Shown one piece after another: positions 28,757 to 64,000 of a stretch of 64,000 nt of DNA; positions within the stretch are counted from its first letter, which is position 1; each line of letters opens with the position of its first letter. Origin of the DNA: Daphnia pulex (taxonomy: Eukaryota; Arthropoda; Branchiopoda; Diplostraca; Daphniidae); the NCBI RefSeq assembly GCF_021134715.1, contig NC_060026.1:9725001-9789000 (forward strand). The letters run 5' to 3'. The translations under genes and the position numbers were made by a program. The notes under the pieces are model-generated. The model saw nothing but the letters and a program-made list of their open reading frames with translations, made no database searches and was not told the origin of the DNA.

Positions 28757-28925
28757 TGGTTGGCTGAACCGGCGTCACTAAATTTACTGGTTGGCGTACT
28801 GGTTTTTTGTGCTTTTATTTTTAGTATTGATTTTACTGGTTGGCACTGGTTATGGTAGTATTGATTTTACTGGTTGGCACAGGTTATGGTAGTATTGATT
28901 TTACTGGTTGGCACTGGTTATGGCT
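28757..28925. repeat. Element I left subterminal array
   Basis: Includes at least two full copies of a 34-bp unit (ACTGGTTGGCACTGGTTATGG then TAGTATTGATTTT) plus partial units. The GGTTGGCACTGG motif reappears inverted in the right array. Possible transposase-binding sites. Confidence 0.8.
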
Positions 28926-29019
28926 TAATTATTTAACTCGTTTTTTCTGTGTTTTGGTTGTGCAATTATTTTTATTAAGTTTATTTGGTTTCATAATGTT
29001 TTAGTTAATTAAAAATGGG

Positions 29020-29850
29020 TTATTGAACTTGTCTTTGAATTTGTCGGATGAGTATTAAAGGATCAAAGTCTTCTTTTGAATGCGTTGTATACTTGTATTT
29101 AAAGAACATTAATAATGTGTTCCTAGCGCTTGTAAATTGATTCTCCGTCACCTGTGGCACTTCGATTACTGGTTGTGATGACGAGTTATAAGAAAAGAGA
29201 AATATGGCCAAGAGTGTGTACATGCCACAATCAGAATCGTTTTCTTGTTACCAAATGGTTGTAGGGATGATTTGCCATTGCGCCAGTTCGCTTATCCTGA
29301 TGCTAAGTATTTGGTTAGCATGTGCGCGGTCTACTGGATTGTCGATCCAAAGTGGTCCTCCGACTTCGGTTATTAATCGCTTAGTTGTTTTTAGTTCGTC
29401 CCGTAGCCAGTGGAAGCAGTATTCGCCGATTTTTTTGGTTGCGGAATCCTGATAACCTTTGTATGAATCTATTGTTGACACTTTGCGTTCGTTTATATCT
29501 ATAATGCAGCATAGCCAGTGCGCTCTGTTTATATGAACCGGTATACATATTCTGTCGAGCAGCCAAATGCTCTGATTATAATTTCTGAAGTAGCGTCTTG
29601 CACTTTGAAAGTCGTATCTTCCGATTTCACCGTGTGTATTGGTCGAAGAGAGTTTTGTGAAGAACCAAGTGGGGCATATAAAAGATTTAATAGAAGAATG
29701 AAGACGCGAGTTACTGGCATTGACACTGGCGATAAAGAAATGTATAAATTCGTCGTCTAACCATCAGCCCTTGTTTAATGTGGCAGCATTCTTCTTGAAG
29801 ATTGTGATGCCGTCGTTGTTCGTGGAGCAGATAACAGTTTTGTCATCGAA
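29020..29850 (-). pseudogene. Ulp1-type (C48) SUMO-protease-like gene, Element I, broken
   Basis: Related to the intact gene in Element V. Minus-strand pieces: a His box with RAHWLCCIID (about 29505), the Asp in VSTIDSYKG (about 29470), then IGEYCFHWLRDELK, and the Cys box ENDSDCG (about 29230), ending FDPLILI as FDPYLVI does in Element V. A TAA replaces the codon before the catalytic Gln, and a frame change near 29480 splits the His and Asp boxes. The N-terminal third (to about 29850) is hard to read. C48 peptidases remove SUMO or NEDD8 from proteins; this copy should be inactive. Confidence 0.75.
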
Positions 29851-29851
29851 C

Positions 29852-31558
29852 TTAGAAAAAAAAATGCCAGGGGTTGTTTGGGAGTTCTAGGTTTTCACAA
29901 TCGTCGCCATTTGTTTCTGGGAATGTTGAATCATCCATCGTATAGTCACTGGTTAGCGCTGGCGTTGCTGGTAAGGATGAGTCGTCATCATCTTCGACAT
30001 TCCCTTTACCAAGTTCGCAAAGAAATTCTTGGTCGAGAAATGTAATTTCATCTTCCAAATCATCTTTATATTCATCATCCGATGACTGCGCTTGTAATGA
30101 AGAGGGTAGTGATATGTGAGGCTGGTCGTTATTTTGTTCGAAGAAGGATGTAGATGCTAGTATTATAAAATGAGAAAGGATGGGGCATTCATTGGAGTTC
30201 TTAACTCTCTGAAAAATGTTTTTTGGGTTAACCCCTGTCTTGCAGACCTTTTTGTTGGCTGAACGGGTTGAAAATACCATCCACGCATCCAGTAACATTG
30301 GCTTTCGTGAACCCTTGAATGTTCTCGTCGAAAACCCAGACATGATCACTAGTACGAAAAGATGTATGGTTGTTTTTGTAGTCAATATCTTTGCATAAAT
30401 AGAATTGCTCGTGAGATATTCTATTAAGCTTGGAAAGCTGATGATGTAAATAGGATCGCATTCTAAGGTTCTCGGGCGTCAAATTGTGAGGAGGGCACAA
30501 CGGTACACCATCTTCGTCTCTTGCGTATAATCTAATATTACGTTTATTGCTTCCGAATATGGTAAATCTCGCGTTGTACAACTCGCAGCAAAATCGCATT
30601 GCTGTAGATAGAAAATGATAACCAGTGTCTGTCAGTAGCATTCCGCGATAGATCGTCCCTAAAATAGCCCATGTTTTGAGGTAACCGAACTCTTGCTCGA
30701 TCGTGGATCGTGTGCTACCCAGGAAGTTGTTGTATTCAGTTTCTATTGGGTCTAGTTTTCTTTTAGAGTCTTTATATTTAGGGATAGGAACTGCACACTG
30801 AGGAGAGTTAACGTAATGTCCATCACCAATAAAAAATTCATATCTGTGCTTGTGTTCGGGGTTATCGTAGTCGACGCCGTTCCATAAACCAAGTTCTTCG
30901 AATGTTTCGTTCCAGATGGTACCATTGTAATCTAAAGATGAAAAAGGTCCTCTCAGGTGAATTATGCCCCAAGTGGTTGCATAACACTTGCCACTTTAGA
31001 CATCATGTCTTTGATTTTCCTGTGTAAATCTAACTTTGATGCGCCGAATCACTTGGCTTTCTTGTGGTCACATCAACAGTATCGACACTGCCAGTTGTGA
31101 AGACGGAAAAAAATGAGGTAACATATTGTCTGCCGAGAATCTTTGTTTGTACCAGTAGTCAACGTAAGCAGTCTTTGAAATTAAATATTCCATTTGAAGT
31201 TGAAAGCGTGTTATATAATTATCATACTGCTGTACGAAGTTTTGTTTCCAAATAGAAATCCACATTGACTGGTGGTGGGGTATACACGCAAATAATAGAG
31301 GAGCTGGAAACGTTCTTGTCTGTATATTGAGGCGATATCGTTTTCAAAACAAAAATTGTTTAAGTTATAATTATGAGTATACTTGTTTTTCAGGATGGGC
31401 ACTCCTACGAATTGCGAATAGTACTCGAAGATCCGAGGATGAACAGCAACCGACGAAAAATTTCGAACAGTGTATTCTCGACAAGTCTCGTCTTCTGTGA
31501 ATAAATGAGAGAATACGTTCTTCATTAAACGGGAGACAGTTTTACTATAATGGGTCAC
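29852..31558 (-). pseudogene. HARBI1-like DDE transposase, Element I, broken
   Basis: N-terminal part (31211-31558) has YTVRNFSSVAVHP and the helical LLYYLRVYPT block. The first Asp is probably in GSVDTVDV near 31080. Next come GPFSSLDYNGTIWNET, the second Asp in IGDGHYVN (about 30810) and the Glu in RSTIEQEFGYLKTWAILG (about 30690). The C-terminal part (29852-30641) ends in an acidic tail. The order matches DDE_Tnp_4/HARBI1 nucleases. A frame change near 31085 and stops near 31015-31035 break the gene. It lies head to tail with the Ulp1 remnant and diverges from gene A. Confidence 0.75.
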
Positions 31559-31871
31559 TTTAAGGAAACTTTTGTTGAATTGCGCAACATGTCTGTGTAG
31601 ACTTGATTATATTGGGACTGGCTAGCCTGACGTCATTGGCTTGCACCCTACTGGCTATTGCAGGTATGATCATTTAAAATGTCCTAAAACATTGTGTTTT
31701 ACTATTTTCCTGGATACCTTACTTGAAACAGAATTATCTAAATGTATCCTATTTCTAACCCTGCGTTCAGAAAAGAAAGCCAAAGAAAAACATGAAACAT
31801 TCACAGGAGCGACTCCTACCGATCTCCAAAATGGTTCGTTATATATGTTTACTTTTTATTTTTTTTATTAG
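31559..31871. promoter_or_regulatory. Divergent intergenic region of Element I
   Basis: About 300 bp between the leftward transposase and rightward gene A, presumably holding both promoters. No specific box assigned. Short reading frames here are not supported. Confidence 0.3.
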
Positions 31872-33564
31872 GCGTCACGTTTTTACAAACAACACAATCA
31901 ACCGGGCCAAACAGAATTGATATCCTACTTTGGGACGAAAAAGTCAAACAGTTCGCTCAGTTGCTACTGTCAGGGTCTCGAGATCAAGGACTCGATAGCC
32001 TAACAAATGCTCCTACAACAAATACTATTCTATCAGCGATAAACTCGATCTCAGGCAACAACGTATCTGAGAATCTTTGTTCTTCGAACTCTCGTGTGTT
32101 AACCAACACCTCGCCTAGTTCCAGAAGAGTTGTAGGTGACACTATTAGTACGTCTACCAGTGCAAACCAGTGCATCGAAGCGTCTGATGTATATCGTTGA
32201 TACCGAAACTGGTTGTAATAATAAGCAGCAAGACCAAATAACCTCGAATACTGTTCCGAATCCACCATTGAAAAATTCTCCTTCGTCTACAGTGGCTCCG
32301 CGGCTAAGCCAGTTGAATATTCATTTTGAGCAATCTCCGGATTCGGCATCAGGGAATCATCAGCTACAAAGTAACTTGAATGTTGATTTCGAACATTCGG
32401 TTAATACAACAGGAATTCAACCAGGCAACTTGAAGGTTGTGTCTCGACCATCCGTGACATCATCAGAGACTGCTGAGCAACTACTGAGGTTAAAAGCCTT
32501 TTCTCAGCATCCACAGAATTCTACAACTTCTTTTGACACTATGCAGCAATCTACCAACTCGCAGGTTGTCTCTCGACCTACAGAAACATCCTCGGATACT
32601 GCTGAGCAATTAATAAAGTTAAATGTTGTTTCTCGTCAGTCAGAGAATTTGTCGGACATCCTTCAGCATTCAAACCAATTTAATCATATCGCTCAAAACA
32701 ACACTTCGTTTATAACTGGCATTCCTCATGACAACTTTCGTCATGTCTTCCCTTTTCAGTACAATACCTTTACGAATCAACAAAACCCAAAATTTGTCCG
32801 CGCATCTCACACGCACATTAATTCTAATTATCAATTGCCACATCATACCACTAACATCGGCCATTACTCTCAGCAACCACTTGTTCCGTCTCACATGTCT
32901 CGACAAACCAGTTACTTTCCAGTGACTTCTCAACCACCAATTGTTCCGTCTCACATGCCACAGCAAACCAGTTATTTTCCAGTGACTTCTAAGCCTCCAC
33001 TTATTTCGTCTCAAACTACTCAACAGACAACTTTCTTTAATGGGAAATCTCAACAAAAAACGATGTCATCCACAACCGCTCGGCAGACTAACCTACTTGA
33101 GCTCATACAGTCAAAACAATACGATGACGACTTGTCATGTGAAAACAACAACGAAGAAAATTCATCCCAACCAAATATACAAAGATATGGATCAAGTACA
33201 TTCAAGCAAGTCCCATTTCCTATTGAACATCATGAAGAATACGATTTGGCATTACAGAAACTGCAACCTTCAACAAAGACGAGAAAGACTATTATTCAGC
33301 GTAATCTCGCTAAAGGTAATTTTTAAATCTCATTATAGTTTAATGAGGTATTTTATTTTAATAATATTAGACTTTGATTCAGTTCAGGAAAATTTCGGCG
33401 AACCAGTAGCCGAAAAAGACGAAAATCAAAGCGACGACGAGGTCGACGAAGACACGAAAGTTGACGATCAGAATGATTCAACATCGGATGATGAGCATAA
33501 TATACAGACCACGACAAAGAATGAAAAGACAAAGAAGACGTATGCATATTGGTTACATTATTAA
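31872..33564 (+). pseudogene. Element I accessory gene A (Ser/Thr/Gln-rich repeat protein)
   Basis: An N-terminal stretch around 31915-32200 (ILLWDEKVKQFAQLLLSG) aligns by eye with gene A of Element V. The frame shifts near 32180 into a 396-residue frame (32136-33326) rich in Ser, Thr, Gln and Asn, with repeats such as VVSRP-TSSDTAEQL and SQPPIVPSHMPQQT. After an intron (33318-33370) an acidic tail with EDENQSDDEVDED follows, ending KTKKT. No enzyme motif. The composition suggests a disordered DNA- or chromatin-associated protein, but function is unknown. Confidence 0.5.
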
Positions 33565-33616
33565 TAATCTCGATTTTAGTAGGACATACATCTCGCATCG
33601 CTGCAACCATGAACAA

Positions 33617-34375
33617 TTATCTTTTTTTTTCGTTTCTTGCACACTATGAAATTGTCAATAACGATCCGGAAGGTCTCACAGCTGAGTAGAAACTGTCAAA
33701 GATTCTAGGGAAGAAGTGCAAATCCCACAACCAGGATTTTGTTATTTGGCTTGAAGACAACATTATTTTTATCGCATTAATTTTTTATTATTCCAGGAAC
33801 GAGCCCATCTTAACCTATACAGCACTAACAAATGGGATCCTATCGAAAATCCACATCATGCTGCTTTCCTAGCGAAGTATCATAAATACACAGCAGTGGT
33901 CGAAGATGCACACCCCTGTCCTTTCTCAAGACAAGAATTGCGTCTGTGTTCTCGAGTGGTTATTACGACCCTAACACAAACACGCGTTCGTATCCAGCCC
34001 GTCGAAAGAAACTGACTTCTCTACGTGGCGAATCCCGCCAATTGAATCCTGACGATGAGGACGACGATGTAGCCATTGACGACGATCAAAAAAATTCTAA
34101 GCAGTTATCGAAGTATACAAAAACAATTAAAAAGGGCTCCACTTCAACAGCGAAATCATCCAAAACCACTCCGGCGAAAAAACTGGTGACAATAACAAGA
34201 AGATGGCATCAATGGCTCAAACCAATACATCTAAGCCTGTAAAAGCCAGTGGACCGATCCATGCGGCAAAACAAGCACAGAAGCCAGTGTCATCTCAAAA
34301 TTTTCAACAAAATAAAGTAGAAAAGGCTCTTCAAGTTCCAGTTAGCAAACCACTACGCCTAGAAGAACCACTGGA
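33617..34375 (+). pseudogene. Element I accessory gene B, 5' part
   Basis: Begins MNNYLFFF; a conserved KSHNQDFVIWLED block (about 33725-33765) matches FHNQDLTIWLED in Element V gene B. An in-frame TAG at 33686 breaks it. Later parts are acidic (NPDDEDDDVAIDDD) and Lys/Ser/Thr-rich, then a Pro/Gln/Lys-rich segment in another frame. Coding sequence is cut at 34375 by Element II and seems to resume at 42259. Confidence 0.55.
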
Positions 34376-34386
34376 CACAGCAAAAC

Positions 34387-35090
34387 TTTCTACACCTTTT
34401 TTACTCTCATTCTACACTTTCTTACACTCTCAAGTGTAATAATTACACTAATTTACACTTTCTTACACGTTAATTGTGATCGTGTATAACATTACACTGT
34501 AGTTACACTATAATTACACTATGAATTCATCGAAAATTACACCATTTTACACTTTTTTACACCTTCCAATTTTTTTATCGACAACCAGTATAACTTTACA
34601 CTTAGATTACACCATAATTACACTTCAATTTTGTCGATTTGTGGTGTAAAATATTACACTTACTATTGTATTTTGTCGTTTTACACTGAAATTACACCTT
34701 CGTTACACTTACTGCAGTGACTGACGTTATTTACACTATTTTTAAACCGTTGAGTGTAATAAAGGTGTAAATTCTGCATGGTTGTTTGAAGTGTAAAAAA
34801 TTACACTACTTACCGAATTTGTTCAATTTACACGATTATTACACCCATTATACACTTACAGTTAATACCGGCTTTAATTACACTAGAATTACACCATTTA
34901 GTGTAATAAAGGTGTAAATTCTGCATACATTACACCTTTAGTAAGAATTACACTAAAATTACACTTTCTGTTCTGATTCGGGTAATATAGGTAAACTAAG
35001 TGTAATATATGTATATATTACACTTAGTTTACAAGATTTGGAATAATATTAGTGTAATTATCATCAAATTTACACCATATACACGCATTT
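34387..35090. repeat. Element II left subterminal TTACAC array
   Basis: About 700 bp crowded with more than twenty copies of TTACAC or its complement at irregular spacing, mostly TTACAC-oriented. It contains no gene. The right-end array (41820-42250) has the opposite orientation. It may bind transposase or an accessory zinc-finger protein. Confidence 0.9.
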
Positions 35091-35186
35091 TTTTCTATTT
35101 CGATCGTATTTTACTCGTCTGTTACGCTCAATTATATTGCTTTATTGATAAACGATTTCAATTGAATCTGAAAACAAACAATATGA

Positions 35187-36590
35187 TTAAGACTTTGGCG
35201 GAAAGCACGGAGACTTTGTGAAGTGCTTATAGTTATTGAGTACCCATCGATACAAACTGGAGTTGCCGAACTGCTCACTCAGAACATCAACATAGTATAA
35301 ATGATGTAAAGTTGGTCGGGGTCTCTGCTCGTAAAAAAGAGTTGTCCTCGTTAGGTTTGGTTTTGTATCATCATATTTCCACCTAGCGCAGTTGTCACCG
35401 TCCTTTTCTTTCAAAAGTGCCGCAGATGTGAAGTGCTTGTCCGCATGAAAAACTTCGGCTATCAATACATAAATATGTGTATCCTTCTCGTTTTCTTTGA
35501 TTCTAATGATATCCGGAGGGATGAAACTTTCTGCAGCTGACTTTCTGATGCTGAAGCTTAGGATTGGGTTTTTCCGCACTAAATATTTCGTTTCCATGTA
35601 GGAGAAGCTGGACTCGATGCACATGACATTATCTTTGCTGTCCTCGGCGTCGTCTTGATCTGCGTCATTGATTCGATTGTCTTTTCTTGTACTAGAAGGA
35701 TTACAGCATTTCTTGTGCATCGAAGATCTTCCCGAGAAGCATTGCTTGTAAAGTTCATAATTGTCCAAAAACAAGCGCGGCTTCAGTCTTAAAGTTGTGT
35801 CCTTTTGCTCTGTTAGAAGAGATGTGGAGCTGCTAAACTCTCCTTGGGTAATCGGTAGATTTAAATAAAAGAAGTATTGGGATTTATTTCTTCTAGTTTT
35901 TACTTCTGCCGCATTCAGCCTCCCACAACAAGGAACTGCAAGGTCCTTCATCCACAATAAATCTCCAAGCTCCGAACCACTGCTCCGCTGCGTCTTTGTA
36001 CTCAGGTATAGTACTCGCAGGTGATGAGATACATTCAGATAAGCAAAAAAGGTAACTGGTGAATTTGTGTGAGTCGGTAGATTTTTGCCGTACACTGTTG
36101 CGAAGCTCATAGCACGTATCTGTATCTTTTTCGGTGATGAAATTGTAAATTATTTTGATTAATGTTATGAACATGTTGTCATTATGCACGCTAGAGAGGA
36201 CAATGTTTGGGTCATATTGAAATGTTGCATGGTTTAATAAGATAGCGTAGAATGAAAATAAAACGCAATCTAAAGCACAATCTAATACGCTATTCCGCAA
36301 GAAAGTTGGAGCATTTGCATCCTTTTTTTCGATGGGGGCTTCATTCCTTTCCCGTATTTGGGTAATTTCTTCGAGCGTTCATTATTATGGAATATTTCCC
36401 AATCTTCTTTGGAAATGAATGGCTTCAATGGCTGAGGAGCCAGTAGTACTTCTTGTCCACTTGCATCGTTGCTAGAGGATAATGTTATTTTTTCTTCTTG
36501 ATCGTCATCATGGCTTTCCATTCCAAAAGATAATCGTCGCGGGGTATGTGAAAGCAGATCTAAAGGTAAACGTCTTCCATCATCAGGCAC
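35187..36590 (-). pseudogene. USP-like (C19) deubiquitinase candidate, Element II
   Basis: An N-terminal acidic segment (36282-36590) leads, after a frame change in a T7 run near 36330, into FLRNSVLDCALDCVLFSFYA, a possible Cys box. A second frame change near 35900 leads into the 35187-36110 frame. Its C-terminal part has HFTSAALLKEKDGDNCARW followed by KYDD, resembling the His box of USP peptidases (HYTA...W...FDD), then YYVDVL. It holds the place that Ulp1 holds in Elements I and V. Family assignment rests on these two boxes only; an unrelated Cys protease is possible. Confidence 0.4.
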
Positions 36591-36762
36591 ATCTACAACA
36601 GATATCGCTGAGAAAGTCTTCGTTGTTGTTATGTGTTCGGGTGTTCTTCATGCAGGGTTTAGCGATATAGTTGTAGTCTGTAAGGGAGTTGTGTTAGATC
36701 CAAGATTGTTTAGTAGATCGCTTAGCCTTGACGTACATGATCTGGTAATGTTTGCCCACTCG

Positions 36763-39700
36763 TCAGTGTGAACCCCAGAGATAGAATGAAGCAAGAGCGA
36801 TCGAACTGTCTAAACTATTTTGCGAGCGCCGCATCGAGAACAATGTCAATGAATCACTGAGATCGTGTTGATCTGGAAAAGTGTTAAATGAACGTTCGGC
36901 AGCGTTGCTATCTATCAACTGATTGTTCACCCATGATGGAGGGTCGAAAACATGAGACACTTGAATTGGGTTGATGTTAGCGAATGGGTCATTTAATTTG
37001 TCGAACTCTTCCAGTGACGATCGCGCAGCTGATTGTACATGTAAATCAGCTGCAGGTGCACTCGAAGACGTTTGTGAAGAAGATGCGTGTGGAGATGATG
37101 GTGCGGAATCAGGTACATGTGGAGACGAAGGCCGGGAAATTTGCGGAGAAGTTGGTGGGAAACATTCTTGATCAGCTTCTGAAGGCAGTTGCTGCCGATC
37201 ATTTTTTGTTTTTTTTTTGCTGGTGAAGAGTCAACATGATCGTGGGGCATAGGTCTTTTCTTCGACGACCGACCTATTATTTGGCTGTTGGTATCAATGG
37301 CAGCGCTTTTTAAGAATGCTTGATCAAAGGAAAGATCCCCGTACCCCTCATCTTCGATCTCCTCGTAGGAGTAAGAAGGTTTCTTTCTCGCTGGGGCTTG
37401 GCGTTTTTTAATAGAGCCCCCTTCATCTTTAGTTTGCGCTGCGTTTGATTTGTTGTTCGCAGATGAAACTTTGACATCTGAGACTTTCGCAACTGAAACT
37501 TTCGAAGTTAGAGTCGTTATCTTGGATGTCAGCATCTTCTTAACACTGTGATTGTCTTTGTTTGTCGCTGCTTCTCTTAGATTCTTTTCGGTGATGCGAC
37601 CTTTCTTCACAGAACCAAATTGATTTCGAGGAACGAAAGGCTTTGATCCAGTATCCTTTGAACCATTCTCCAGGAAGTTGGAGGTTGGTTCCCAGGGAGC
37701 ATAAGTAATGGGACCATGTCCCAATCGAATAACACACCAAGAGACAGGATTGGAAAGAAGGTCGTGCTCCACAAGAACAATTTTTCGATGGATTAGTTGT
37801 TGTGGCTGAATTAAAAGACGCTCAAACTCGTACAATTTTTCAGAATCAACGAACCAGGATCCGAAAGCACCAATTCTCAATTTTCGAACAACAAAAAACC
37901 AAAATATTTTGTTTTTTCCAAGAGAAACAGATAACAAGTGCTTGACAACACAGAAAAAAGGAAAATCTCGTTCATTTGATTGCATATTAAAAACTTTAGA
38001 TTCGCGGGGTTGATCTTCCCCGCTCACTAATTCAATATACGCATCGCTAGATAGAAGCCCTTGCTCGCGTTTAAGACAACCAATGTCGCCGTCGCCAACA
38101 GACAGTTTGTGATATTCTATTATAGATATACTCAAAGATGACAACGAATTAAAATCCTGTATGGTAGGATCACGACGTAATGTTTGTTCGACAGTGTCGA
38201 CAACGTAAGGCTTAAAGTCTCTCGGGGTTAATTTCTTTCCTTTCAATGTGGCTCTGGCGATATTAGGATCGTTGCTGTCACTGTATTCAGGATCATATAC
38301 ATCGTTATCCATGATTCCGAACTTTTGAGCGAAGCGAGCTAAATGCTCATGAGCTACCACCGCTTTTGTCATAGAGATTTCAAGATTTTTACCAGATCGG
38401 ACTTGATCAGCTATTACCGCCTGTAAGCGCTCATTAATCATACAAGAGTAACCAGGCAGAGGGCCAAGATCGTATATATAGTTAGCCAGAAGAATCAATA
38501 AAATCCACTGGACACCTTTAAAAGAATTTGAGAAGTTAAAGTCTGTGTCTTTCTGAAGGATCGCGACAGACGTCACTAATCGCTTTCTGAGAGAGATAAT
38601 TGAGTTCTTCGAGTGAGAGAAAAACTGCAATTCATCCATACAGAATAACAATAGAATAAGATACTTGAACGGACGCGTTTTCAATCTATGATTAGGTATA
38701 ACGCAGTTCAGAAGGAAAACAAATCCTTCTCCGCATAAAAGATTTTTTTGTGTTGTTTTGAGAAAGCTCATCCCAGAAATAACTTTTGGAGGGAAACGGT
38801 ACTTCGAAGAAAAATGTATTTTGTCGAATGCATAGTCCATAATATCATGGCCTGCCTTAGTAAGTCGAAGAGGGGAATAATCAGATTTAAGTTCTTCCAC
38901 AATTTTAATTGCACAGTTTGATATGACATGCGCGCTACAATAGACAGCCTGGCGAGCTAAGGGAAACCATGGACAGAATTTAAGAACGGGAACAACAGAC
39001 AGCCAACCATGCTCGTGTTTCGATTGTCTGGCATCAGGGACGCCAGCGGCGACTTGACTCTCATTTGATCTACCATGTCGAATAATTTCGTCGTTATCAC
39101 TATTAACTTTTTAAGGACCAAGCGTACGCAAAGCAGTATTCTGCGAAGCCACTGTAGCTGTTTCAGCAAGTTCTTTTCGAAACCAATGATTAAAAGGAAG
39201 AAGACGCCATACATCATCGTAATGAGGATATATGAGATTTTTTCCTCGAGAATCTACCACTGATCTCCTGACTACCTGCCACGAATGTATTGGAATTAAA
39301 GCTGGCTGTTGAACGTGGCAGGTGTAAATAGGGATCCGTTTGCCATCAGCAGCCAAAATGCTAAGAATAATGCGAACATTCCAAGATTTTCTTGTAGTTT
39401 TATCGACCCACTCGAACGAATGATTGTATAAGTAATTGGCTTCTTTAAGGAAGGGCTTATAATATAAACGTTCGTTCTTTGAGTTCGGACCAGGTATAAA
39501 AAAAGAGCATGCGAAGTTAGCGCGCGTGTAGAAGGGGGAAGAGAAAGAATGGCTTGAAAAATAGGTGAGGATTGGTACTGACCCCCTTGAATGCAATGTT
39601 CACTAACTATTTGCAAGTCTCCGAATGACGCTACTGGAATAATTATAGTATCATCGGATTCGAAGTCGCGCAGTTCTTTACCGACGGTTGCGTTCGAATA

Positions 39701-40430
39701 GAAATCGTCAAAGTAAACGTCGTCAGCATGCGAGGAAGGCTGGTTTTTTATTAGAAGTTTGGAATAACGCTCATCATTAAGGATTGAAAGAACGCCATCT
39801 TTAATAGATCTAGCGTAGAAATTCTTGGGAGCTTTAGAAAAGATTATAATAATAAAGAAATAGCTTCCGTACCAGGTTCGTCTTCCTCAAGCTTTTTATA
39901 ATCTATGCCGCATGAAGGGCATATGCTTCTAGCTTTATCCAAGAAAATGTGATCCTCTTTACCACAAACAATATGATGCTTAAACTGGCCCATTGAATTA
40001 GAAACACCCAAAGCATAAAGACTTGTTTTAAAGGATTTGGGTAGCTGCTCGAGTAAAGGATTCAAAGTCAAGCTATTGAGAAATTCGCAAAGTTTGTTGA
40101 ATGAAGAGTCACTCAAATTAGAAAGAATCTTAATCTTGCATAGATTATATACAATCCAAATAAAAGACGACTTATCTAAGGATTGCGGGGCTAAAGTAGA
40201 TCGAGGCAGCTGCATAATTTGGCCTTTGGATTCTTCGAAGTTGTCACTTTGATCAAGATGGATATTATCTTCACCATAAAATGGTTGTTCGAGTTCACCG
40301 CGATTGTAATCATGATCTTCTCTTGTTTATAACCCGATTCTGGCAAATCTAAGCATACGTCGTCATCGGATTCGCGGGAGAGTTCCTCGCTCGCAGAGGA
40401 GATAGAGGTGTTGTTTCGGATCTTGGCAAG
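36763..40430 (-). pseudogene. tnp2/Plavaka/KDZ-like DDE transposase, Element II
   Basis: Starts with an acidic segment (SRESDDDVCLDLPESGY, about 40350), then a helical N-terminal domain (LSDSSFNKLCEFLNSL, LPKSFKTSLYAL) and a zinc-binding CPSCGIDYKKL near 39905. The core has PIFQAILSLPPSTR (39550), FIPGPNS (39480), WNVRIILSILAADGKR (39360), FPPKVISGMSF (38780) and the late GPLPGYSCMINERLQAVIAD (38440). A long Lys-rich tail ends at 36763. This order fits the tnp2-like family common near KDZ elements. A frame change lies in a T-run near 39505, and there is an in-frame break near 38905-39110, which may be an intron. Catalytic residues were not pinned down. Confidence 0.55.
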
Positions 40431-40730
40431 AGCTTCTCATTGAAGCGATTGGTTCTTCGCAAAGACATTTCTTTCTTCTTCTTTCCATTTGCAAAGTACA
40501 GACTCATGAATCAGACTTGCATTCGAATCAAAATTAGGCATTTAGACTTAGACTGGGAGACATTTAGACTGGGAAGATGGGAAAGTCCCTGCTACAGGCA
40601 CAGCAACAGTCTTCTCAGCCTGACTCAGTCGTAGTTCTCGTAACTCACAAATGATATGTTGAAAGGTAACTAATGTACATAGTCAACATATGTTCTAGGC
40701 ACACAATTTCATCTTTCTTTTATTTCATCG

Positions 40731-41738: not shown

Positions 41739-41819
41739 AAAGATTTATATTTATTGCCGGCGATTTATTTAAATAAAATATTTCTTGAAAATTTGAAATA
41801 ACTGAGCGTAAGCTAGGAG

Positions 41820-42250
41820 CGTGTAAATATTACACGATTGCATGCGGGAATATTTACACCATTAAGTGTAAATAAAGTGCTAGTAGCAGTGTAATTTTTG
41901 CCCAAAAAGTGTAATTTATGCCACAGGTTAACCGAGCGACGGTGTAAAATTGACACAATCGAGTGTAAAATATTTACAAAAATTACAACCGATAGTGTAA
42001 TTTCTACACTTTATAATGTAATTTCTACAATATTTGGTGTAATTTCTACACTTTTTGGTGTAAATTTTGCCACCGAACCGTGTAAATAGTTTAAAAATGT
42101 CCATTATTGGTGTAATATTTCCGGTGTAAAACGGTGTAAATTTGGTGTAAACTGAGTGTAAAACTGAGTGTAAGGAAGTGTTAACACCTTGCAGAATTTC
42201 CACGATTACACTATGGTGTAAAAAAAGTGTAATTCGGAGTGTAGAAAGTT
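41820..42250. repeat. Element II right subterminal GTGTAA array
   Basis: About 430 bp dense in GTGTAA (complement of TTACAC), the mirror image of the left array. It ends in the TIR at 42258. Confidence 0.9.
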
Positions 42251-42258
42251 TTGCTGTG

Positions 42259-43905: not shown

Positions 43906-43913
43906 TGACGTGC

Positions 43914-51139: not shown

Positions 51140-51304
51140 AGAATTAGGGGTGGTAATTCAGAACTAGCATCTCACTTTGATGACTCGTTCCCTTACCTCC
51201 CGAGTACAAAACATAAGCCAGCGGTTGTGCGCTACAGGACACAGTAACTGTCACCGCTGCTGTTTAACTCACGTGGACGAACCCACGACGTTGACCCCCC
51301 AACA

Positions 51305-52582: not shown

Positions 52583-53192
52583 CCCTCCCAAGCGGGTAAT
52601 CACCGCGGCAGCAGCTCGCGAATTGAAGTGGTGGTTCAACACACTCACGTTGTGGAAAGGAACTTTCATCATTCTCCCGATTGCATATGATTCCATCAAG
52701 CTGTTCACCGACGCATCCAAGAGCGGCGCGGGAGCCGTTTTCGGTAAGTACTACGGACGTGACGAGTGGACCGAGCCCGAACGAGCAGCGTCCTTTATCA
52801 CTAAATCCGAGTCATTAGTGTTCCTAGAACTACTGGCATTCGCACATGCACTTGAAACCTTCATAACGCATCTGAAGGGACGTAAGATCCTTGCATACTG
52901 CGACAATCTGGACATGGTGCACATCATCACGAGGAGGACATCTTCTTCCAGGAACGTGCGAGCCCTCCTCGACAAGATTTTCACTTACTTCGTGGTCAAC
53001 GACTTCGACGTCATCGTCAATCATATCCCGTCCGAGCCGAACAAATTGGCGGATCCTTTGTCACGCCTCAAGGAAGCCACCTTCCTAAAGCGATATAATC
53101 ACCCCAGAAGGTCATCGAGCGACCCACCGACCCCAGCAGGCGGCCCAATCAAACTGCAGCGAGGAGATACACCAAACACCCGATACTTTTAA
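52437..53192 (+). CDS. DIRS-like RNase H (copy 2)
   Basis: Begins at the switch from the RT frame (LLQFFARGIRHGRIYLADLYG). RNase H motifs in order: KLFTDASKSGAGAVFG, FLELLAFAHALE, AYCDNLDMVHII and IPSEPNKLADPLSR. All four acidic positions are visible. Probably the C-terminal part of one RT-RNase H protein. Confidence 0.78.
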   Translation: MAPLSQLSIFKLLQFFARGIRHGRIYLADLYGLIAETDDETTRRPHEHDPPKRVITAAAARELKWWFNTLTLWKGTFIILPIAYDSIKLFTDASKSGAGAVFGKYYGRDEWTEPERAASFITKSESLVFLELLAFAHALETFITHLKGRKILAYCDNLDMVHIITRRTSSSRNVRALLDKIFTYFVVNDFDVIVNHIPSEPNKLADPLSRLKEATFLKRYNHPRRSSSDPPTPAGGPIKLQRGDTPNTRYF

Positions 53193-53384
53193 ATGCACCC
53201 CCCGGTCATCCCATTCTTTGATTTCCTCGTCATGATGTTTCCATCACCACCACGCGATACACTCCCTTCTTACTCTCTCCGACCTTCTTTCAATCACACT
53301 TCACATACTCAAACACGATCTAAATTTTATTACTTATCTTCTGTTTGTTATTGATCGTAAAACTAATTATCACATGAATTCAGA

Positions 53385-54531
53385 ATGCCTAAATCATCGA
53401 CCCAACGAAGATCAGGACGGAGGCAAACACAGTCAGCATCGGCAGCTAAGGCATCAGCGTCTGACCATGTGCATGAGCGTGGATCGGACCCGTTAGAACT
53501 ATTACAACAGGTCATCGATATCTTTCAAAGCGGCCTCGCACCCTCGACCAGGAGAACATACGCCACACCGGTCCGATCGTATGAGAGATTCTGTCAAGAA
53601 ACAACGAAGCGCCAGCCATACCCCCTCGAGAAAGAGACAATGTTCATGTGGATGGCTAGTCTTGCTAATCGATCCAGTAATCCCGACAGCAAGATCATCC
53701 AGTCGAAACGCACCATCAGCGTCCCAAAGCCAATACTCGCCAAGACCATCAAGAACTATGCGAAATGCGTCGGACTGCACTGCGAGCGACAAGGTGGAAC
53801 CAACATCACAAGCTCCCTCCCATTTCAGACCTTCTTCAATGGCCTCAAACGCACCCTGGGAGCACCCCCTTCGAAAACCAAGTTCCCTGTAGGCCACGAT
53901 ACCCTCACGCGCCTCAGCCACTCCATCAACATCACATCATTCGACGAGATACTCTGCTGGGCAGCACTAGCTACGACCACCTACGGTCTCTTGAGAAAGT
54001 CCGAGATCACATGTGATCGATCACCCAGATCTCCCGCTCCTACCCCAGAAGCAAACCAGCATGCCATAAAATGGAGCGAACGGAGCTCACATTCGAAGGC
54101 ACTGAACTTGCGAAAGTCACCTTGTCGTTACAATCATCGAAGACGAACCAGTTTAGAGGTCAGCCCGACACGGCTCATATCACACACAAGCTGGCCCTGA
54201 AAGCACTGAATGACTACCTTTTCATTCGACCCGATAGTGACCCTTCATCACAGCTCTTCATAAACGAAGATAAGTCCCCTCTAACACGTTCGAAGCTCAA
54301 CCGATTGATACTCAGTTGGTTGAAGGCCAAGAAACTGTTCCACCCAGAGATGCACAGAGGCTGGAGTGGCAGAAAAGGCGGCGCGACGTCCCTCCTAGCG
54401 AACGGCGTCTCCCTTGACGTAATACTACTCTGCGACCGTTTGAAATAGGTGAAAACAGTACTAAACCACTACGTGCAACTGAAACAAACCGATTTGGAAG
54501 CAATTGTCGAAAAGGCCACAGCTGCCCAAAA
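53385..54531 (+). pseudogene. DIRS-like tyrosine recombinase (copy 2), active site damaged
   Basis: Starts MPKSSTQRRSGRR (53385). A SAM-like N-terminal domain has LAPSTRRTYATPVRSYERFC. The first Arg is in TYGLLRKSEIT (about 53995). The frame then shifts near 54010-54070. In the second frame the HxxR box reads GWSGRKGGATSLL, with Trp where His is expected. A TAG at 54446 precedes the Tyr in VLNHYVQL (about 54470). Frameshift, lost His and nonsense codon together make it inactive. Confidence 0.78.
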
Positions 54532-57042: not shown

Positions 57043-57082
57043 TAATATCAGCTGCATGTCCACTCTACCCCTCTGAATTAAA

Positions 57083-57728: not shown

Positions 57729-58083
57729 ATGTCTGGTCCACGTTTCTCGGATGATAGTTACTATGAGGACTTTAATGAACGTAGCTTCATAGCATCAACA
57801 GGTGCCAACAGGATGGTCTTCAACAAGCTTTGCGAATTAGCGGATATCGGCAAATCGTTCTCTCCGTTCAAACTAAAGTTTTCGACCTTTGCTGCATTCT
57901 CTTAATTTTTCATTTTTTTATCAACCTACAGATTCCATGTGTTCTTGTTGTTTCACTACCTCAAATGTATCCTCCTCAAGAAAGTATCAACATGTGCATT
58001 CTCGGCAAAGAGGTCAACACAGACCGACTAATCGATCTTCTAGCAGAAAGAGCAACTTACCTCTCGGATAAGATCAACCTCAG
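57729..58083 (+). pseudogene. HARBI1-like transposase N-terminal fragment, Element IV
   Basis: MSGPRFSDDSYYEDFNERSF begins the protein and matches the start of the Element III transposase. After an intron, LPQMYPPQESINMCILGKE and LAERATYLSDKINL follow (to 58083). The catalytic domain is missing: the sequence changes at about 58083 to unrelated DNA at the edge of Element V. Confidence 0.7.
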
Positions 58084-58266
58084 GAGTTGTCTGAAACCAT
58101 TGGCAGCGCTGCGCGCAGCCGTTACGTCACGTCACAATACCCCCTTTTTATATGATCATTCGATAGCCCTTGGTCGGGGCTACACAACTGCGCATGGGGG
58201 CGCAGTAACTGGTCGCCGTTACCTTCAGCGTCCAATGTTAAAAATTTGCCCCGTTACATCAAGTGG

Positions 58267-58440
58267 CATCCAATGTCAACATTGGACGCCAGGTGGCAAC
58301 CAATGATTTCGTAGCTGGCGTCCAATGTTTTCCAGCTGGAGGCCAATGATTTAAGCTGGCGGCCAATGATTTAAGCTGGCGGCCAATAATTATAGCTGGC
58401 TGCCTGTGTCTTACATCTGGCAGACAGCGAATTTAAATGG
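58267..58440. repeat. Element V left subterminal array
   Basis: Several copies of a 20-bp unit (TTAAGCTGGCGGCCAATGAT) and variants with GGCGTCCAATG. Located just left of the Ulp1 gene, as the arrays of Elements I and II are left of their isopeptidase-like genes. Confidence 0.85.
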
Positions 58441-58516
58441 CGTCCAATGTCTTTTACATCGCAATTGATTTTTTATTAAAATTCAAATCGATGAAACAAA
58501 AAATATACAGCCTATT

Positions 58517-59374
58517 TCAGTGCATTAAATTTATTACTAGGTAAGGATCAAATATTTCTTTAGACTTCGTGACATATTTATAGCGAATGAAGTTGAGCAG
58601 CATCGAACGCATCGTCGAAATTGCTTCGTTACACTTGGCATCGTCTGTGTGGAACTTTGATCTAGTTGCGCCAGTGAAGTGAATGAACATCGCGACAATT
58701 GTATGAAGGCCGCAATCGGAAGTATTATCTTGGCACCAGTAATTTGCGTAGTCAACTCGCCATTTACCCTCCGACAGATATTCCAAGCGAGAGTTGATGT
58801 ATGCAATGGTTTCTTCCCGCGCGAATGGATCTTCGATGTAGAATACTGTGCCAGTATCGATTATTCCTTTTTTGTTCTCTTTCAGTTCATCTTTCATCCA
58901 GTGAATGAGGTATTCACCGATCTTTGATATCGTCTGGTCGTCCAATGAACCAGTAAGAGAATCAATAACAATAACTCTGCTATTCTTGACGTCGATGATG
59001 GCAGCAATCCAGTGATTGTTGTGGACGTGGACAGGGATGCAGATAGTCTCTAAATTCCAGGGTCTTACGCCATCTTGGCGAAAGAAACGACGGACAGGAC
59101 TGTAGCGATAAGGTCCAATGGCGCCATGAAGGTCAACCGTTCCTAGTTTCAAGAAGAAAAATGTAGAGCATATATAGGCACTTGGACAATAATCGCTTTC
59201 GTCTAATGAATAGTTGGCACAATCCGAGAAAAAATTGATTATTTGATCATTTAGCCAATGATTATGTAACAACGTGTAGGCATCTCTCTTCCATATCTCG
59301 ATTTTACCGGAAGGTGAAGTGCAAATCGTTAAGTTGTCTGCAACGGAAGCAATCACCTCCCAAGGATGTGCCAA
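58517..59374 (-). CDS. Ulp1-type (C48) cysteine protease, Element V
   Basis: 285 residues, uninterrupted. Family landmarks in order: HNHWLNDQIINFF near residue 37, CSTFFFLKLG, the catalytic His in VHVHNNHWIAAII, the Asp in RVIVIDSLTG, and the Gln and Cys in YWCQDNTSDCGLH. The full His-Asp-Gln-Cys set of ULP1/SENP peptidases, which process SUMO or NEDD8, is present. It ends IFDPYLVINLMH. Ten bases separate it from the transposase upstream, in the same direction. The intact frame beside broken neighbours suggests selection or recent activity. It may deconjugate modifiers from transposase or host repressors; this is inference. Confidence 0.9.
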   Translation of the reverse strand: MAHPWEVIASVADNLTICTSPSGKIEIWKRDAYTLLHNHWLNDQIINFFSDCANYSLDESDYCPSAYICSTFFFLKLGTVDLHGAIGPYRYSPVRRFFRQDGVRPWNLETICIPVHVHNNHWIAAIIDVKNSRVIVIDSLTGSLDDQTISKIGEYLIHWMKDELKENKKGIIDTGTVFYIEDPFAREETIAYINSRLEYLSEGKWRVDYANYWCQDNTSDCGLHTIVAMFIHFTGATRSKFHTDDAKCNEAISTMRSMLLNFIRYKYVTKSKEIFDPYLVINLMH

Positions 59375-59383
59375 ATTGAGAAG

Positions 59384-60678
59384 TCACTCCTTCTCCTCCT
59401 CGTCCATGGAGTAGTCAAGTACGACATCATCGTCATAAGAGCCACTGGATACAATATCGATTCCAAGTTCCACAAGAAAATCTTCATCTAGATAATGCTG
59501 ATCTTGCTCTTGGTCACCTTCGTCTTCATGTGGTATAGGGATCGCTTCCTTACAGTCAGTATCAGCGTCAGCAACGACATTCGATGCGTCCGCGTCATCG
59601 GCAGCGGACAGATTAAATGATGGCGTCGGACCTATTGGATTCTTTCGCAACTGGTTCAAAGACGTTAGATACGAAGAAGAAATCGCAAAGTCAGAGATAT
59701 TAGGTTTGTCTTGAGCGCCTTTGTCTCTTTTAAATAAAATCGACGGTATGAGACCTGAGAATGTGTATTTTTTGTTGAATGATCTCACGGAGAAGAGACC
59801 ATTGACACACCCGGTTATGTTACCTTTTAAGAAGTCTTGGCTATTTTCATCGAACATCCAGATCGAGTCTGTCATCTTGAATGAGGTGACATTGTTTCCC
59901 GAGCAAATGTCTTCGGCGCGATAGAAAGTCTTATTGGATACAGATTTATATTTAGAGAGTTGTCTGTGAATGTTGTCACGAATGTTCAGATTTTCCGGTG
60001 TCAGGTTAGGTGGGGGGGGGGGGCACATTGGAGCTCCATTGTCATCGAACACGACTACCTTGATCTCTCTTTTATTGTGATTAAGAATAGCGAAGCGGGC
60101 GTTGTATAATTCGCAACAGAAAAAAAAGCTGTGCATAAAAAAGAATATCCATTGTCGTTCATTAACATCCCGCGGTATACTGTACCGAGTATAGCCCACG
60201 TCTTCAGGTAGCCGAAGATCTTCTCTATCGTCGATCTGACACTGCCGAGGAAATTATTGTATTGTTGCTCAAGGGGGTCCAGTGTTTTCCCACTTGGAGT
60301 TTTTATTGGGGAAGTGCATTGGACACCGTTCATGTAGTGGTTGTCTCCAATGATCACCTCGTACCTTCTCGAATGCTCCGGATTATCGTCGTCAACACCA
60401 ACCCATAGATCTAGGTGGGGATGTGTTTCGTTCCAAATAGTACCGTCAAAGTCGAGGGATGAGAAGGGGCCATCAACTTGAATAATATGACCATAGATCA
60501 CTTGCCATTTAATGCAGCAAGTTTTAGAATTTCCAGTGTAAATCGCATTTCTCTGCCGGGAAACAGTTGGTTTCCTCATTTTGGGGTGAACGGCTACAGC
60601 GGAGAAGTTGCGTACTGTGTAACGACGCCAGAGTTGGTCCTCCCCAAATAAGTTGGAAAACACGTTTGGAAACGACAT
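59384..60678 (-). pseudogene. HARBI1-like DDE transposase, Element V, internally deleted and frameshifted
   Basis: N-terminus MSFPNVFSNLFGEDQLWRRY and NFSAVAVHPKM, as in Element I. It then jumps to RKPTVSRQRNAIYTG, missing about 120 residues that in Elements I and III contain the helical block and the first Asp. Retained: GPFSSLDFDGTIWNET, the second Asp in IIGDNHYMNG and the Glu in RSTIEKIFGYLKTWAILG. A frame change in an A8 run near 60121 separates the C-terminal domain (59384-60199), which ends in an acidic tail. Probably inactive. Confidence 0.78.
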
Positions 60679-60829
60679 AACACATGTGGTAAGCTGCGCT
60701 AATGTATATTAAAGACATTGGGCGACATTGTCATTGGGTGTCAGCCGTCATTGGTAACTGGCTATTGTTGAATATGAATTTTTTCACTTGATCCCAGCAA
60801 AAACGAACTACTAAAGTATTTACTCTAAA
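60679..60829. promoter_or_regulatory. Divergent intergenic region of Element V
   Basis: About 150 bp between the transposase start and gene A start on opposite strands. Presumably holds both promoters. No box assigned. Confidence 0.3.
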
Positions 60830-62210
60830 ATGCAGAATGCTTCCACGATCGCTACAACTCGACACCCTGCGTCTCGAGGAAATGTTGAACAAGTCGCAGA
60901 CACTTGCGATGAGTCTTCTAAATTTCTACCACCGACCGGATTTCTCCTGACTGGTTGTTTAGAGCAAAGTAATTTGTTTCTTTTTAAGTAAGTCTGCTAC
61001 TTCTTGTTAGCCACTTTTTCCAAACCTACTAGCCTTGAGACACACGAAGATGCGAGCATTGGCATTTTGTTCCCAGCGAAAAACATAGTTATTATATTTT
61101 TTAATGTTTTTCTCTAAGTTATCTGATAAGTCGATCGTGACACAGAACCCACTCGAAGCCATTTCCAGCTGCAGCGCGTTGGAAAATGATAAAAGTTTCA
61201 CAAACAACCGACAAAACTTACTTTTTTTAAGTCACCGAGACCGCTGAGTTAAATTCGGCAAAATTACGTTTCGAAGATGTGACTTCTTCGATCTCCGACG
61301 TAGCTGCACTTTTATCGAATCCAGACGTCATGTGCTTCATCAACCTGATAAAGAATAACAACGACAGCAACATTAACAGTGTCATCTCACACACTATGAG
61401 TCAACTCGACTCACATTCGGTCCAACGATCTCCGATAATTTGCTTCCCTGAAACACCGGTCAGATCAATATTTGTCTCTGGTACCGACGCACATACTGTT
61501 GGCGTTGCTACTGCAGGTTCCGCCAATCTCCATATGCAACATGCTACCTATCTCCAACCGAACGCCAATCTCCAACATGCCGCCAATGTCGAGGTCCAAC
61601 CTACCGTCATTCCCCAAACAACTATCCATTCCCAAGCCTCTTCGAACTGCCAACTTTCTTCAACATTACAGTTTGGCTTAACCTTGAATTCTCACACTTC
61701 TTCAAACTTCCAAATTGTATCCGCTCCTCAACCTGTCACTAATATCGCATCACTACCAAACATCGAAGCCAAAACTACATGCACTTACTAGCAAACCTTT
61801 TGGATTTACTCAGCGCGGCGAAGCGAATGCCCATGACCCCGAGAATTGTCGACTCCGACGACACCATGGTCAATAGCAGTTTATTTCCGGAGATTGTGTT
61901 CACCCCCGAAGCCTCTGAGCAATCGGCATCAATGCATGTGCCCAGTGACCTCGACAGTATCAACTGTAGCAGACAGTTGGACTTCGAGGATGCCTTCATG
62001 TCTGTGTCGACACCAATGCCGAAACCGAAAGGCAGTAATGCACGCACTCGATGGTTTGTCCAACCCAACTCCGATTCCGAGTCCGAAGCCGCCGCCGACG
62101 CCGACACCCAAGATGGAACATGTAGAGTGGAACCAGAGGAAGCTGATCCAGAAGAAGAGGAAGCCGAAGAAGAGGAAAAAAGTAACAACACTAAAAGAGT
62201 AAGGAGGTAA
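60830..62210 (+). pseudogene. Element V accessory gene A
   Basis: Exon 1 60830-60968 (MQNASTIATTRHPASRG), intron to 61231, then TETAELNSAKLRFEDVTSS leading into the frame 61279-61791: rich in His, Gln, Asn and Ser with QPNANLQHAANVEVQP-type repeats. The frame changes near 61785 into 61779-62210, with LDLLSAAKRMPMTP, then an acidic Glu-rich end and KRVRR. Same layout as gene A of Element I: conserved short N-terminal region, low-complexity middle, charged end. Function unknown. Confidence 0.5.
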
Positions 62211-62275
62211 ATCTTACAGACTCGCCTGTGTAATGTGATTCTAGGCCGAGAGATCTGACGACTTCAAAGTACACA

Positions 62276-64000
62276 ATGGAACAACAAGCTATTCTATCCT
62301 TCTGGGCCTTTCATTTCATCCTCGACGGCGGTGGAAAAAATTACAAGGAGAATTTAGCAAAAATCAAGAGAAAGGTATCTAAATTCCACAATCAAGATCT
62401 CACAATCTGGTTGGAAGATCGAAAAGTGTTCTTACCGACTACTAACCTTAGAAAGGTACCGATTATCATTCCGACATAATTTTTATTATAAACCTTTGCA
62501 GGATCGACATCATCTTCAACTGTATACAGCTAATTTATGGAACCCAAACGTGAACCAATATCATGCCGTCCTTCAAGCTGAGTTCAATTCTTTCACTTTA
62601 GCTGTACGCGACGCGACACCGGAGAGTTTCCTCGAGTACAAATTAAAATACACATTCAAGCAGTACCTGGACACGAGCGAGAACATTCAATCTCATCCAC
62701 AGCGAAGGTGCGCTTTAGCCAATATGAAAAAGAAACAATTGGAATTAGAAAAAAAAACAATCCGACTCGGCACCTGATCAAGGCGAAGACGATGACTCCA
62801 AACGTCAGTCGAAGACGTCCAAGCATACTTCGAAACCATATGCAAAGCCTCCCGCCAATGCTATAAAGCCTCCCGCCAATGCTACAAAGCCTCCCGCCAA
62901 TGCTACTAAGCCTGCCGCCAATGCTACTAAGCCTGTCAGCAATGTCACCAAGCCTCCCGCCAATCTCGCCAACCCTTCCACCAGCGCACCGGTACCTGCC
63001 GCCAATGACGTGTTGACAGAGGTTCTAAAAAATCTTCCTTTGAACGAACAAGACATCGGTGGTATCAGAGGAATGATAGCGAGCATTATGAAGAAAAGGA
63101 GCAAGCATCCCAGCCTCAACACGCGAACGCTTATCTCAATTCGTCATCAGTGACAAGTGCAACTATACAACAGCGTCCAGCGACATCGACATCCTACAAT
63201 CCATCTTGTGGCGGCGACGTCATTCAAACCCCTACTCATATTGCCACTGAGATGTTCACTGACACACTGACGGAAACCGACCCCGACTCAAACCAGAAAA
63301 GCAAAACAGTAAAATCGATGCATTAAATATTATGTTTTTCTTGTTGAAAAGGCATTGTCGCATCTTCGAGGCATCCCACCGGTTAACAGCATAGCAGTGG
63401 AAAAAGCCCTAAAGAAAAAAGCAACTGACCGAAAGCCAATCGATAACATATGCATGAAGAGTGTTGGTAATCCTCCCAAAAAAGCCCAGTGATAAATCCT
63501 CCATCTTCGAATCCCAGACAGCCAAAAGCTGCACGAATTCGACCGGATTCGCCTCTTTCATGAGTTCCTCCGCACTCCGTGCCGACAAACAAAAGGAAGC
63601 AGTTAGTATCCTCAATCCTCGACTTCAAATTTTTTAAATATTTTAGAAAGAGAAAAAGGTTGCTAACCATGCAAATCAAAAGATGACTTCAGAAGACCAG
63701 TTGCTACTTGATGTATGCTATTTATCATTGTATTTATTCGATCTAATTGTTTGGTTTATCCTTTCTTTCATGCATGCAGCACGAAATGGAAGTTCAAGGG
63801 AAAAAGAAACGAAAACGGACAGATCAAGACGATGATCCTGACTACATGGACACCGATATCAGCACTGGCAGCCAATTGGACACATATGCAGAGCAAGTTG
63901 ACATCGAAGAAGAAGACGATGTCCTCGATTTGACAATTGCAATACCAGTAGAAACGGAGACTGCCAGTGCACCAGCTGCAGCGATTATCACCAAAAAAGA
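62276..64000 (+). pseudogene. Element V accessory gene B (partial, runs off the window)
   Basis: MEQQAILSFWAFHFILDGGG starts it, then FHNQDLTIWLED, conserved with Element I. After an intron (62457-62503) comes HHLQLYTANLWNPNVNQYHA. The frame changes in an A-run near 62750. A KPPANAT tandem repeat (62830-62960) follows, then NEQDIGGIRGMIASIMKKR, further exons including AVEKALKKKA (63395) and FASFMSSSALRADKQKEA (63555), and KKKRKRTDQDDDPDYMD (63800). The Element I counterpart ends in a PHD finger, so one is expected just beyond the window. Confidence 0.55.
62830..62965 (+). repeat. Coding tandem repeat (KPPANAT units)
   Basis: Six to seven copies of a 21-bp unit (AAGCCTCCCGCCAATGCTACA type) in frame within gene B of Element V. 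Confidence 0.85.

Follow-up and report, generated by a model that had tools for sequence, protein, structure and literature searches.

A candidate Daphnia pulex transposon family with a predicted transposase-Ulp1 protease fusion and two nested clusters

How do transposase and isopeptidase sequences come to lie side by side, in more than one copy, in a single stretch of Daphnia pulex DNA, and do they belong to one mobile system? The stretch is 64,000 nucleotides long (NCBI RefSeq assembly GCF_021134715.1, contig NC_060026.1, positions 9,725,001 to 9,789,000; hereafter the window). An earlier note, made from the sequence alone, had proposed a HARBI1-like transposon family that combines a transposase, an Ulp1 isopeptidase, several spliced accessory genes, and a PHD finger. 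A family uniting such a transposase and protease with a PHD-like protein is borne out by its terminal repeats and target-site duplications and by relatives beyond this genome. Its sequence features identify it as a PHIS (HARBI1/IS5-like) cut-and-paste DNA transposon, ~6-7 kb long and Pangu-like in its terminal inverted repeats and, in part, in its target-site duplications. Transposase and protease are predicted to be encoded by one gene and made as one polypeptide, with the protease a domain of the transposase and not a passenger gene. The explanation we favor, to which we assign a probability of roughly 0.75 as a whole, is a two-gene PHIS transposon in which protease fusion, array binding, local removal of a modifier, and self-directed insertion may act together.

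The transposase-protease gene

Copy A of the family (genome coordinates C4:8099682-8102036), in which gene 1 is intact, contains a single open frame of 785 amino acids that spans the transposase and Ulp1 sequences. The encoded protein matches DDE_Tnp_4 (PF13359; 8.1e-15) and Peptidase_C48 (3.6e-11), both above the Pfam cut-offs; an IS5-family model matched the transposase at 7e-9, below that model's cut-off of 140 bits. Two further genome copies have transposase-to-Ulp1 frames of 745 and 627 amino acids. When we mapped the genome by tblastn, Ulp1 sequence lay downstream in 11 of the 14 family transposase cores; the other three are a single truncated piece repeated in tandem, with two of the repeats stopping near residue 373 and one near residue 95. 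A search of 5.8 billion proteins recovered 10 relatives, six of which carry both Pfam domains in one protein (34-50% identity over 69-99% of the query, or 59% over 37%), and a profile search recovered 14, the same 10 and four more, with both domains in the same six. The linkage of Ulp1 to the transposase therefore extends beyond the window. Compared with solved Ulp1/SENP structures, the C48 part matched at best at 1.9e-6, in two weak stretches, and at 2.2e-19 by profile. When viral contigs were scanned with the family alignment, 15 pattern matches came up, none of which was confirmed as a relative. We read gene 1 as two exons, joined by a predicted splice, that probably encode a DDE transposase joined through a variable acidic linker to an Ulp1/SENP-like cysteine protease.

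The catalytic residues of both enzymes, D80, D167, and E209 of the transposase and H621, D638, Q715, and C723 of the protease, are complete in copies A, VI, and C; copy VI has a frame change inside Ulp1 and copy C has stops. Elements V and I, the family members in the window, retain all four protease residues in broken genes. The four residues are also present in five of the six fused outside proteins (P0002, P0003, P0006, P0007, and P0009); P0005 has Y at the protease H position, as does copy B, and its Q and C positions are unaligned. Among 14 outside transposase proteins, D167 is present in 14, E209 in 13 (D in P0007), and D80 in all nine that cover it. Between copy A and the others, codons of the DDE part differ at 0.15-0.16 of second positions and 0.57-0.61 of third positions (three comparisons), those of Ulp1 at 0.30-0.37 and 0.60-0.69 (five comparisons), and those of the linker at 0.35-0.50 and 0.64-0.67 (three comparisons). 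The excess of third-position over second-position differences in Ulp1 is a sign that the protease, too, has evolved under purifying selection, probably weaker than that on the transposase.

Two other accounts of the protease have to be weighed against a fused enzyme. The earlier note had treated Ulp1 as a separate passenger gene beside the transposase. The two regions are indeed parted by a stop codon in element V, where a single TGA interrupts an otherwise shared frame, and by frame breaks and stops in element I. However, the 785-amino acid frame of copy A and the fused state of six of the 10 outside relatives make Ulp1 a transposase domain, the frames of 745 and 627 amino acids argue in the same direction, and we regard a separate gene as very improbable. 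Alternatively, the protease could process the polyprotein of the element itself. Adenoviruses and Polintons have Ulp1-like proteases that do this, at GG-type sites, and a protease placed C-terminally after a variable, fast-evolving linker might likewise free the transposase from its tail. Yet no GG is common to the linkers of the eight proteins scanned, and we consider self-processing distinctly unlikely. The linker does contain, at ~residues 430-450 of copy A, a motif like [IV]xFLDDEFLxEMGI, found in eight of the 19 sequences or pieces scanned, some of which lack the linker (A, VI, B, I, P0001, P0002, P0004, and P0005). We take this motif to resemble a SUMO-interaction motif and give it no weight because the pattern was composed after viewing the sequences. 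The protease part of the fused enzyme resembles enzymes that detach SUMO from proteins, and it may have a SUMO-related function.

Elements in the window, their second gene and their ends

The window contains two members of the family, elements I and V, together with elements II and III. Matches above the Pfam cut-offs, all leftward, cover 29251-29763 (C48) and 30231-30995 (DDE_Tnp_4) in element I and 58520-59383 (C48) and 60058-60708 (DDE_Tnp_4) in element V. The leftward isopeptidase and transposase described earlier are thus present, but not as two genes, since they are fused. The features are as follows (window positions; boundaries of gene parts in element I are from the tblastn map unless stated otherwise).

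28758-43927, no strand: element I, whole span, comprising ~28758-34375 and 42259-43927 (genes 1 and 2)
28822-28923, plus strand: left subterminal array of element I, 34-bp period, including ACTGGTTGGCACTGGT, at an ACCAGT-enriched end
29050-29859, minus strand: Ulp1 (C48) domain of element I gene 1, interrupted by stops, H, D, Q, and C positions recognizable
29981-31321, minus strand: DDE_Tnp_4 transposase part of element I gene 1, with frame breaks
31391-31525, minus strand: exon 1 of element I gene 1
31625-31669, no strand: divergent promoter region of element I, with CGTCATTGG and ACTGGC, motifs shared with the element ends
32136-33323, plus strand: low-complexity exon region of element I gene 2 (open reading frame list), no Pfam match
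33582-34023, plus strand: conserved exons 2 and 3 of element I gene 2
34376-42258, no strand: element III, inserted within element I and bounded by 20-bp inverted ends, CACAGCAAAACTTTCTACAC; 2-bp GA on either side
42370-42465, plus strand: exon 4/5 of element I gene 2, right of the element III insertion (tblastn, 5.5e-4)
43045-43378, plus strand: PHD-like exon of element I gene 2 (1.9e-15 to the copy A exon)
43613-43836, plus strand: right subterminal array of element I, ACCAGTGCTAACCAGTAACAAAA, 23-bp period
43903-43927, minus strand: right terminus of element I, matching the terminus pattern with two mismatches
44081-45760, minus strand: transposase region of element II, a distant DDE relative without Ulp1
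57785-58082, plus strand: element-II-like transposase gene fragment, truncated by the left end of element V (open reading frame list, inverted repeat)
58083-64000, no strand: element V, left terminal core at 58083-58095 (one mismatch), running beyond the window
58300-58404, plus strand: left subterminal array of element V, 20-bp period, including GGCCAATGA
58520-59383, minus strand: Ulp1 domain of element V gene 1 (C48, 2.3e-15), H, D, Q, and C all retained
59384-59386, minus strand: in-frame TGA between the transposase and Ulp1 parts of element V (frame coordinates and sequence)
59387-60708, minus strand: DDE transposase part of element V gene 1, two overlapping frames (DDE_Tnp_4, 1.9e-9)
60740-60784, no strand: divergent promoter region of element V, with CGTCATTGG and ACTGGC
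61231-63999, plus strand: gene 2 of element V, conserved exons 62258-62434 and 62508-62708 (tblastn map)

The left terminus of element I is degenerate, and its position (~28758) was set by eye; the right terminus comes from the pattern search. Because element III splits element I, the array at 43613-43836 and the PHD-like exon form the right end of element I. Neither belongs to element II. The presence of tandem subterminal arrays was itself confirmed (28822-28923, 43613-43836, and 58300-58404). The plan said to be shared by elements I, II, and V is not repeated in II, and in I and V it takes a form other than the one proposed. The element II transposase is 21-29% identical to the family in the tblastn map, and we found no C48 or PHD match in it; because it has only this distant transposase, element II is not a family member. 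A genome search with element II returned itself and 11 matches, 22-24% identical to the family and all inside the two clusters described below. Element III is also outside the family. It is array-rich, with a weak tnp2 (Transposase_21) match below the cut-off and a 705-amino acid frame with no Pfam match.

The several rightward spliced accessory genes reported earlier retain their direction and splicing but appear to be exons of one gene, gene 2, whose predicted product is a long protein that is conserved in its central part and ends in a PHD-like domain. In copy A, gene 2 has ~six exons (8102439 to 8105067 on C4) and five introns with GT and AG borders. A break in the frame close to where exon 3 begins means that gene 2 is either damaged in copy A or spliced there in another way. 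Exons 2, 3, and 4/5 and the PHD-like exon, all divergent from gene 1, recur in A, C, VI, and I. B and D lack the exon 4/5 match; element V shows exons 2 and 3 only, and its PHD exon is interrupted near 64029, beyond the window edge, by another insertion. The last exon of copy VI matches zf-HC5HC2H (3.4e-4) and PHD_Oberon (3.6e-3), and that of copy A matches more weakly. As all these matches are below the cut-offs, we prefer the label PHD-like; the PHD finger of the earlier note survives in this form. Pfam gave no match for gene-2 exons 2 and 3 of element C, and the weak matches of the same exons of element V to RLL, WzyE, and DLIC, also below cut-off, were judged to be chance.

The termini of the family share the core GGAGTTGTSYGGA, and the terminal inverted repeat of copy VI, GGAGTTGTGCGGAA, is exact (14 of 14 bases). 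The extended pattern GGAGTTGTSYGGAANNACGTCATTG, found mainly at right ends, has 14 matches with up to three mismatches in 133 Mb and none in a backward control. Target-site duplications of 3 bp flank four of the seven end pairs: ATT for A, ACT for C (where, of two candidate right ends, we chose the one giving a matching duplication), AGT for a 540-bp short copy, and TTA for D. Element A sits in the Ulp1 codons of copy B, and joining its flanks restores a continuous reading frame. The 540-bp copy (C10:9808416-9808955) is non-autonomous, has family termini, and lies within the array of VI.

All five elements that we counted (A, C, VI, I, and D) are enriched at their ends in ACCAGT or ACCAATG. 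ACCAGT occurs 20, 26, 11, and 27 times in the two terminal 600-bp stretches of A, C, VI, and I, respectively, compared with means of 0.6-1.0 and maxima of 4-5 in first-order shuffles. The ends of copy D hold 10 ACCAATG (0.36 when shuffled, maximum 2) and no excess of ACCAGT. A pattern scan detected CGTCATTGG in four of six divergent promoter regions (A, VI, I, and V), and we recognized it by eye in copy C. In copy D, TGTCATTGG, also read by eye, is present both in the divergent promoter and at the right end.

Two nested clusters

Every family match in the genome falls within C10:9.754-9.810 Mb or C4:8.090-8.163 Mb. This was true of all 31 transposase matches, all 19 Ulp1 matches, all 17 PHD-like exons, and all 14 matches to the right-end pattern, although a ~20-kb segment with family members, present in three tandem copies at C4:8110-8160 kb, inflates the C4 counts. 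DDE_Tnp_4 sequences in general are spread over the genome, with 15 of the 148 listed matches in the clusters by our count (150 of 207 candidates scored). Within the clusters, three insertions into the family itself are confirmed by duplications: A in the Ulp1 codons of B, C in the array of an outer element, and the short copy in the array of VI.

The proposed mechanism would connect these features. The transposase, or the gene-2 protein, may bind the ACCAGT/ACCAATG arrays and the matching motif of the divergent promoter, which would bring the protease onto the element's own chromatin. There, the tethered protease might strip SUMO, or a modifier akin to it, from proteins involved in silencing or repair, or else from the transposition complex. 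Such array binding could also steer insertions into existing copies, giving rise to nested clusters. In its strongest form, the proposal is a self-targeting transposon whose tethered deSUMOylase would evade silencing locally while the same binding directs insertions into its own copies, such that the family lives almost only inside itself. We offer this form as speculation and consider it rather doubtful.

Several observations weigh against the favored explanation. Both window copies of gene 1 (I and V) are broken, copy B has Y in place of the protease H, and copy D reads R at the Q position. Three of the seven end pairs (VI, I, and B) have no matching duplication, and ACCAGT is also found inside A, C, and VI, at ~3 per kb. 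Beyond this genome, gene 2 is supported by one protein, its PHD exon 97% identical. Other elements are restricted as well. All four matches to element III and its relatives (C4:8170641, C10:9791628, and C10:9801273) lie in or beside the clusters, with one 8 kb beyond the C4 interval; a DIRS-like frame has one genome match, itself, in a cluster; and the matches to element II are likewise restricted. Since other elements are also confined to the clusters, a refuge region could account for part of the confinement.

Taken further, the clusters may be nothing but a refuge, where randomly inserted elements survived. The confinement of these other rare elements, together with the tRNA-gene-rich neighborhood on C10, where blocks of tRNA genes flank the cluster (63 of 11988 genome candidates scored), is what such a refuge would predict, but the general dispersal of DDE_Tnp_4 copies and the three insertions with duplications into the family's own copies are not. 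We consider a refuge plausible, at somewhat less than even odds. A last possibility is that the two loci are domesticated host gene clusters and not transposons. Low copy number and purifying selection would be expected of host genes; terminal repeats, duplications, nested insertions, a short non-autonomous copy, and many broken copies would not, and we find domestication hardly credible. A transposon family with a fused protease thus remains our preferred reading. Array-guided self-insertion could be put to the test in this family, naturally confined as it is to two self-nested clusters, and, with catalytic residues kept and purifying selection indicated, the role of the protease may be addressed by a single catalytic mutation in one protein.

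We also noted features of the surroundings. Window positions 16977-28320 contain nine Rfam tRNA matches (seven by ARAGORN), the last of them ~440 bp short of element I. To the right of the transposon cluster, C10:9819908-9880246 is occupied by a series of tRNA genes, of which many are spaced ~1.42 kb apart. Targeting of tRNA genes was considered and rejected: in seven C4 loci (30.6 kb), the only Rfam tRNA match was marginal and lay ~50 kb to the left of the cluster, and ARAGORN found none in ten loci (six on C4 and four on C10). The frames at 51248-54445 of the window resemble, by eye, a DIRS-type retroelement (reverse transcriptase and tyrosine recombinase); the first frame has no Pfam match. 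Window positions 47882-48669 and 50356-51143 form a 788-nt inverted repeat with arms 100% complementary and 1686 nt apart, which may be a fold-back duplication or an assembly artefact.

Relation to known systems

Strict PIF/Harbinger elements have TWA duplications, and here TTA occurs in one of four; we detected no Myb/SANT match, as in the PIF/Harbinger second protein, in the parts of gene 2 scanned, with exons 4 and 5 outside the scan. ISL2EU elements combine a 2-bp AT duplication with a THAP transposase and a YqaJ second protein, whereas the duplications here are 3 bp and the parts scanned gave no YqaJ or THAP match.

Pangu, named Harbinger2 in Repbase (PMC12730594), is more similar. Pangu elements are PHIS elements with ANT duplications, 11-40 bp terminal inverted repeats usually starting with AG or GG, two genes, and affinity to IS5 (PMC4482050). 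The Daphnia family shares a PHIS-type DDE transposase, termini starting with GG, two genes, and IS5 affinity. ANT makes up three of the four duplications found; over the seven end pairs, ATT, ACT, and AGT account for three, TTA for one, and three have none. Autonomous Pangu elements average 3.5 kb and their transposase is described without other domains (PMC4482050), whereas the Daphnia elements have a fused Ulp1, a length of 6-7 kb, and one TTA duplication. The words Ulp1, SUMO, peptidase, and PHD are absent from the main text of the Pangu paper (PMC4482050).

Harbinger-type elements with a chromatin- or DNA-modifying enzyme are known in HarbingerS, which has a SET domain, and in TET-bearing PHISTA (PMC12730594). 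They resemble our family in carrying a modifying enzyme, but that enzyme is a SET methyltransferase or a TET/JBP dioxygenase and the hosts are oomycetes and fungi. HarbingerS was ruled out as a SUMO-protease clade, as it is the SET clade (PMC12730594). We found no occurrence of Ulp1, C48, SUMO, peptidase, or PHD in that study of TET-bearing fungal transposons (PMC12730594), and a word search of a fish Harbinger paper found no protease, peptidase, or Ulp (PMC9179366). Proteases of this type are also carried by some Cryptons (C48; PMC3212892) and by Ulp1-bearing plant Mutator elements (named in PMC2836005), there by tyrosine-recombinase or Mutator enzymes and not as a DDE_Tnp_4 fusion. In the full-text literature searched, which leaves most subscription journals and Repbase/Dfam outside its scope, we recognized no published Ulp1-PHIS fusion.

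The closest design is that of Ginger1, in which a DDE enzyme and a C-terminal Ulp1 are parts of one protein. Ginger1 transposases have C-terminal Ulp1 or OTU domains and, in one family, a PHD finger, are found in animal hosts, and are of similar length; a role for these domains in transposition or repair has already been proposed (PMC2836005). Ginger1, however, has a Gypsy-integrase-type DDE core with GPY/F and H2C2 motifs and 4-bp CCGG duplications (PMC2836005), whereas the Daphnia family has a DDE_Tnp_4/IS5-like core, 3-bp duplications, and its PHD-like domain in a second gene. The Gypsy-integrase-type core (rve) had no match at E<=1 in the six fused proteins. The Ulp1 fusion of the Daphnia family is convergent with that of Ginger1. 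SUMO/ubiquitin-type proteases recur in several unrelated transposons, and this family adds a further fusion, to a different DDE transposase.

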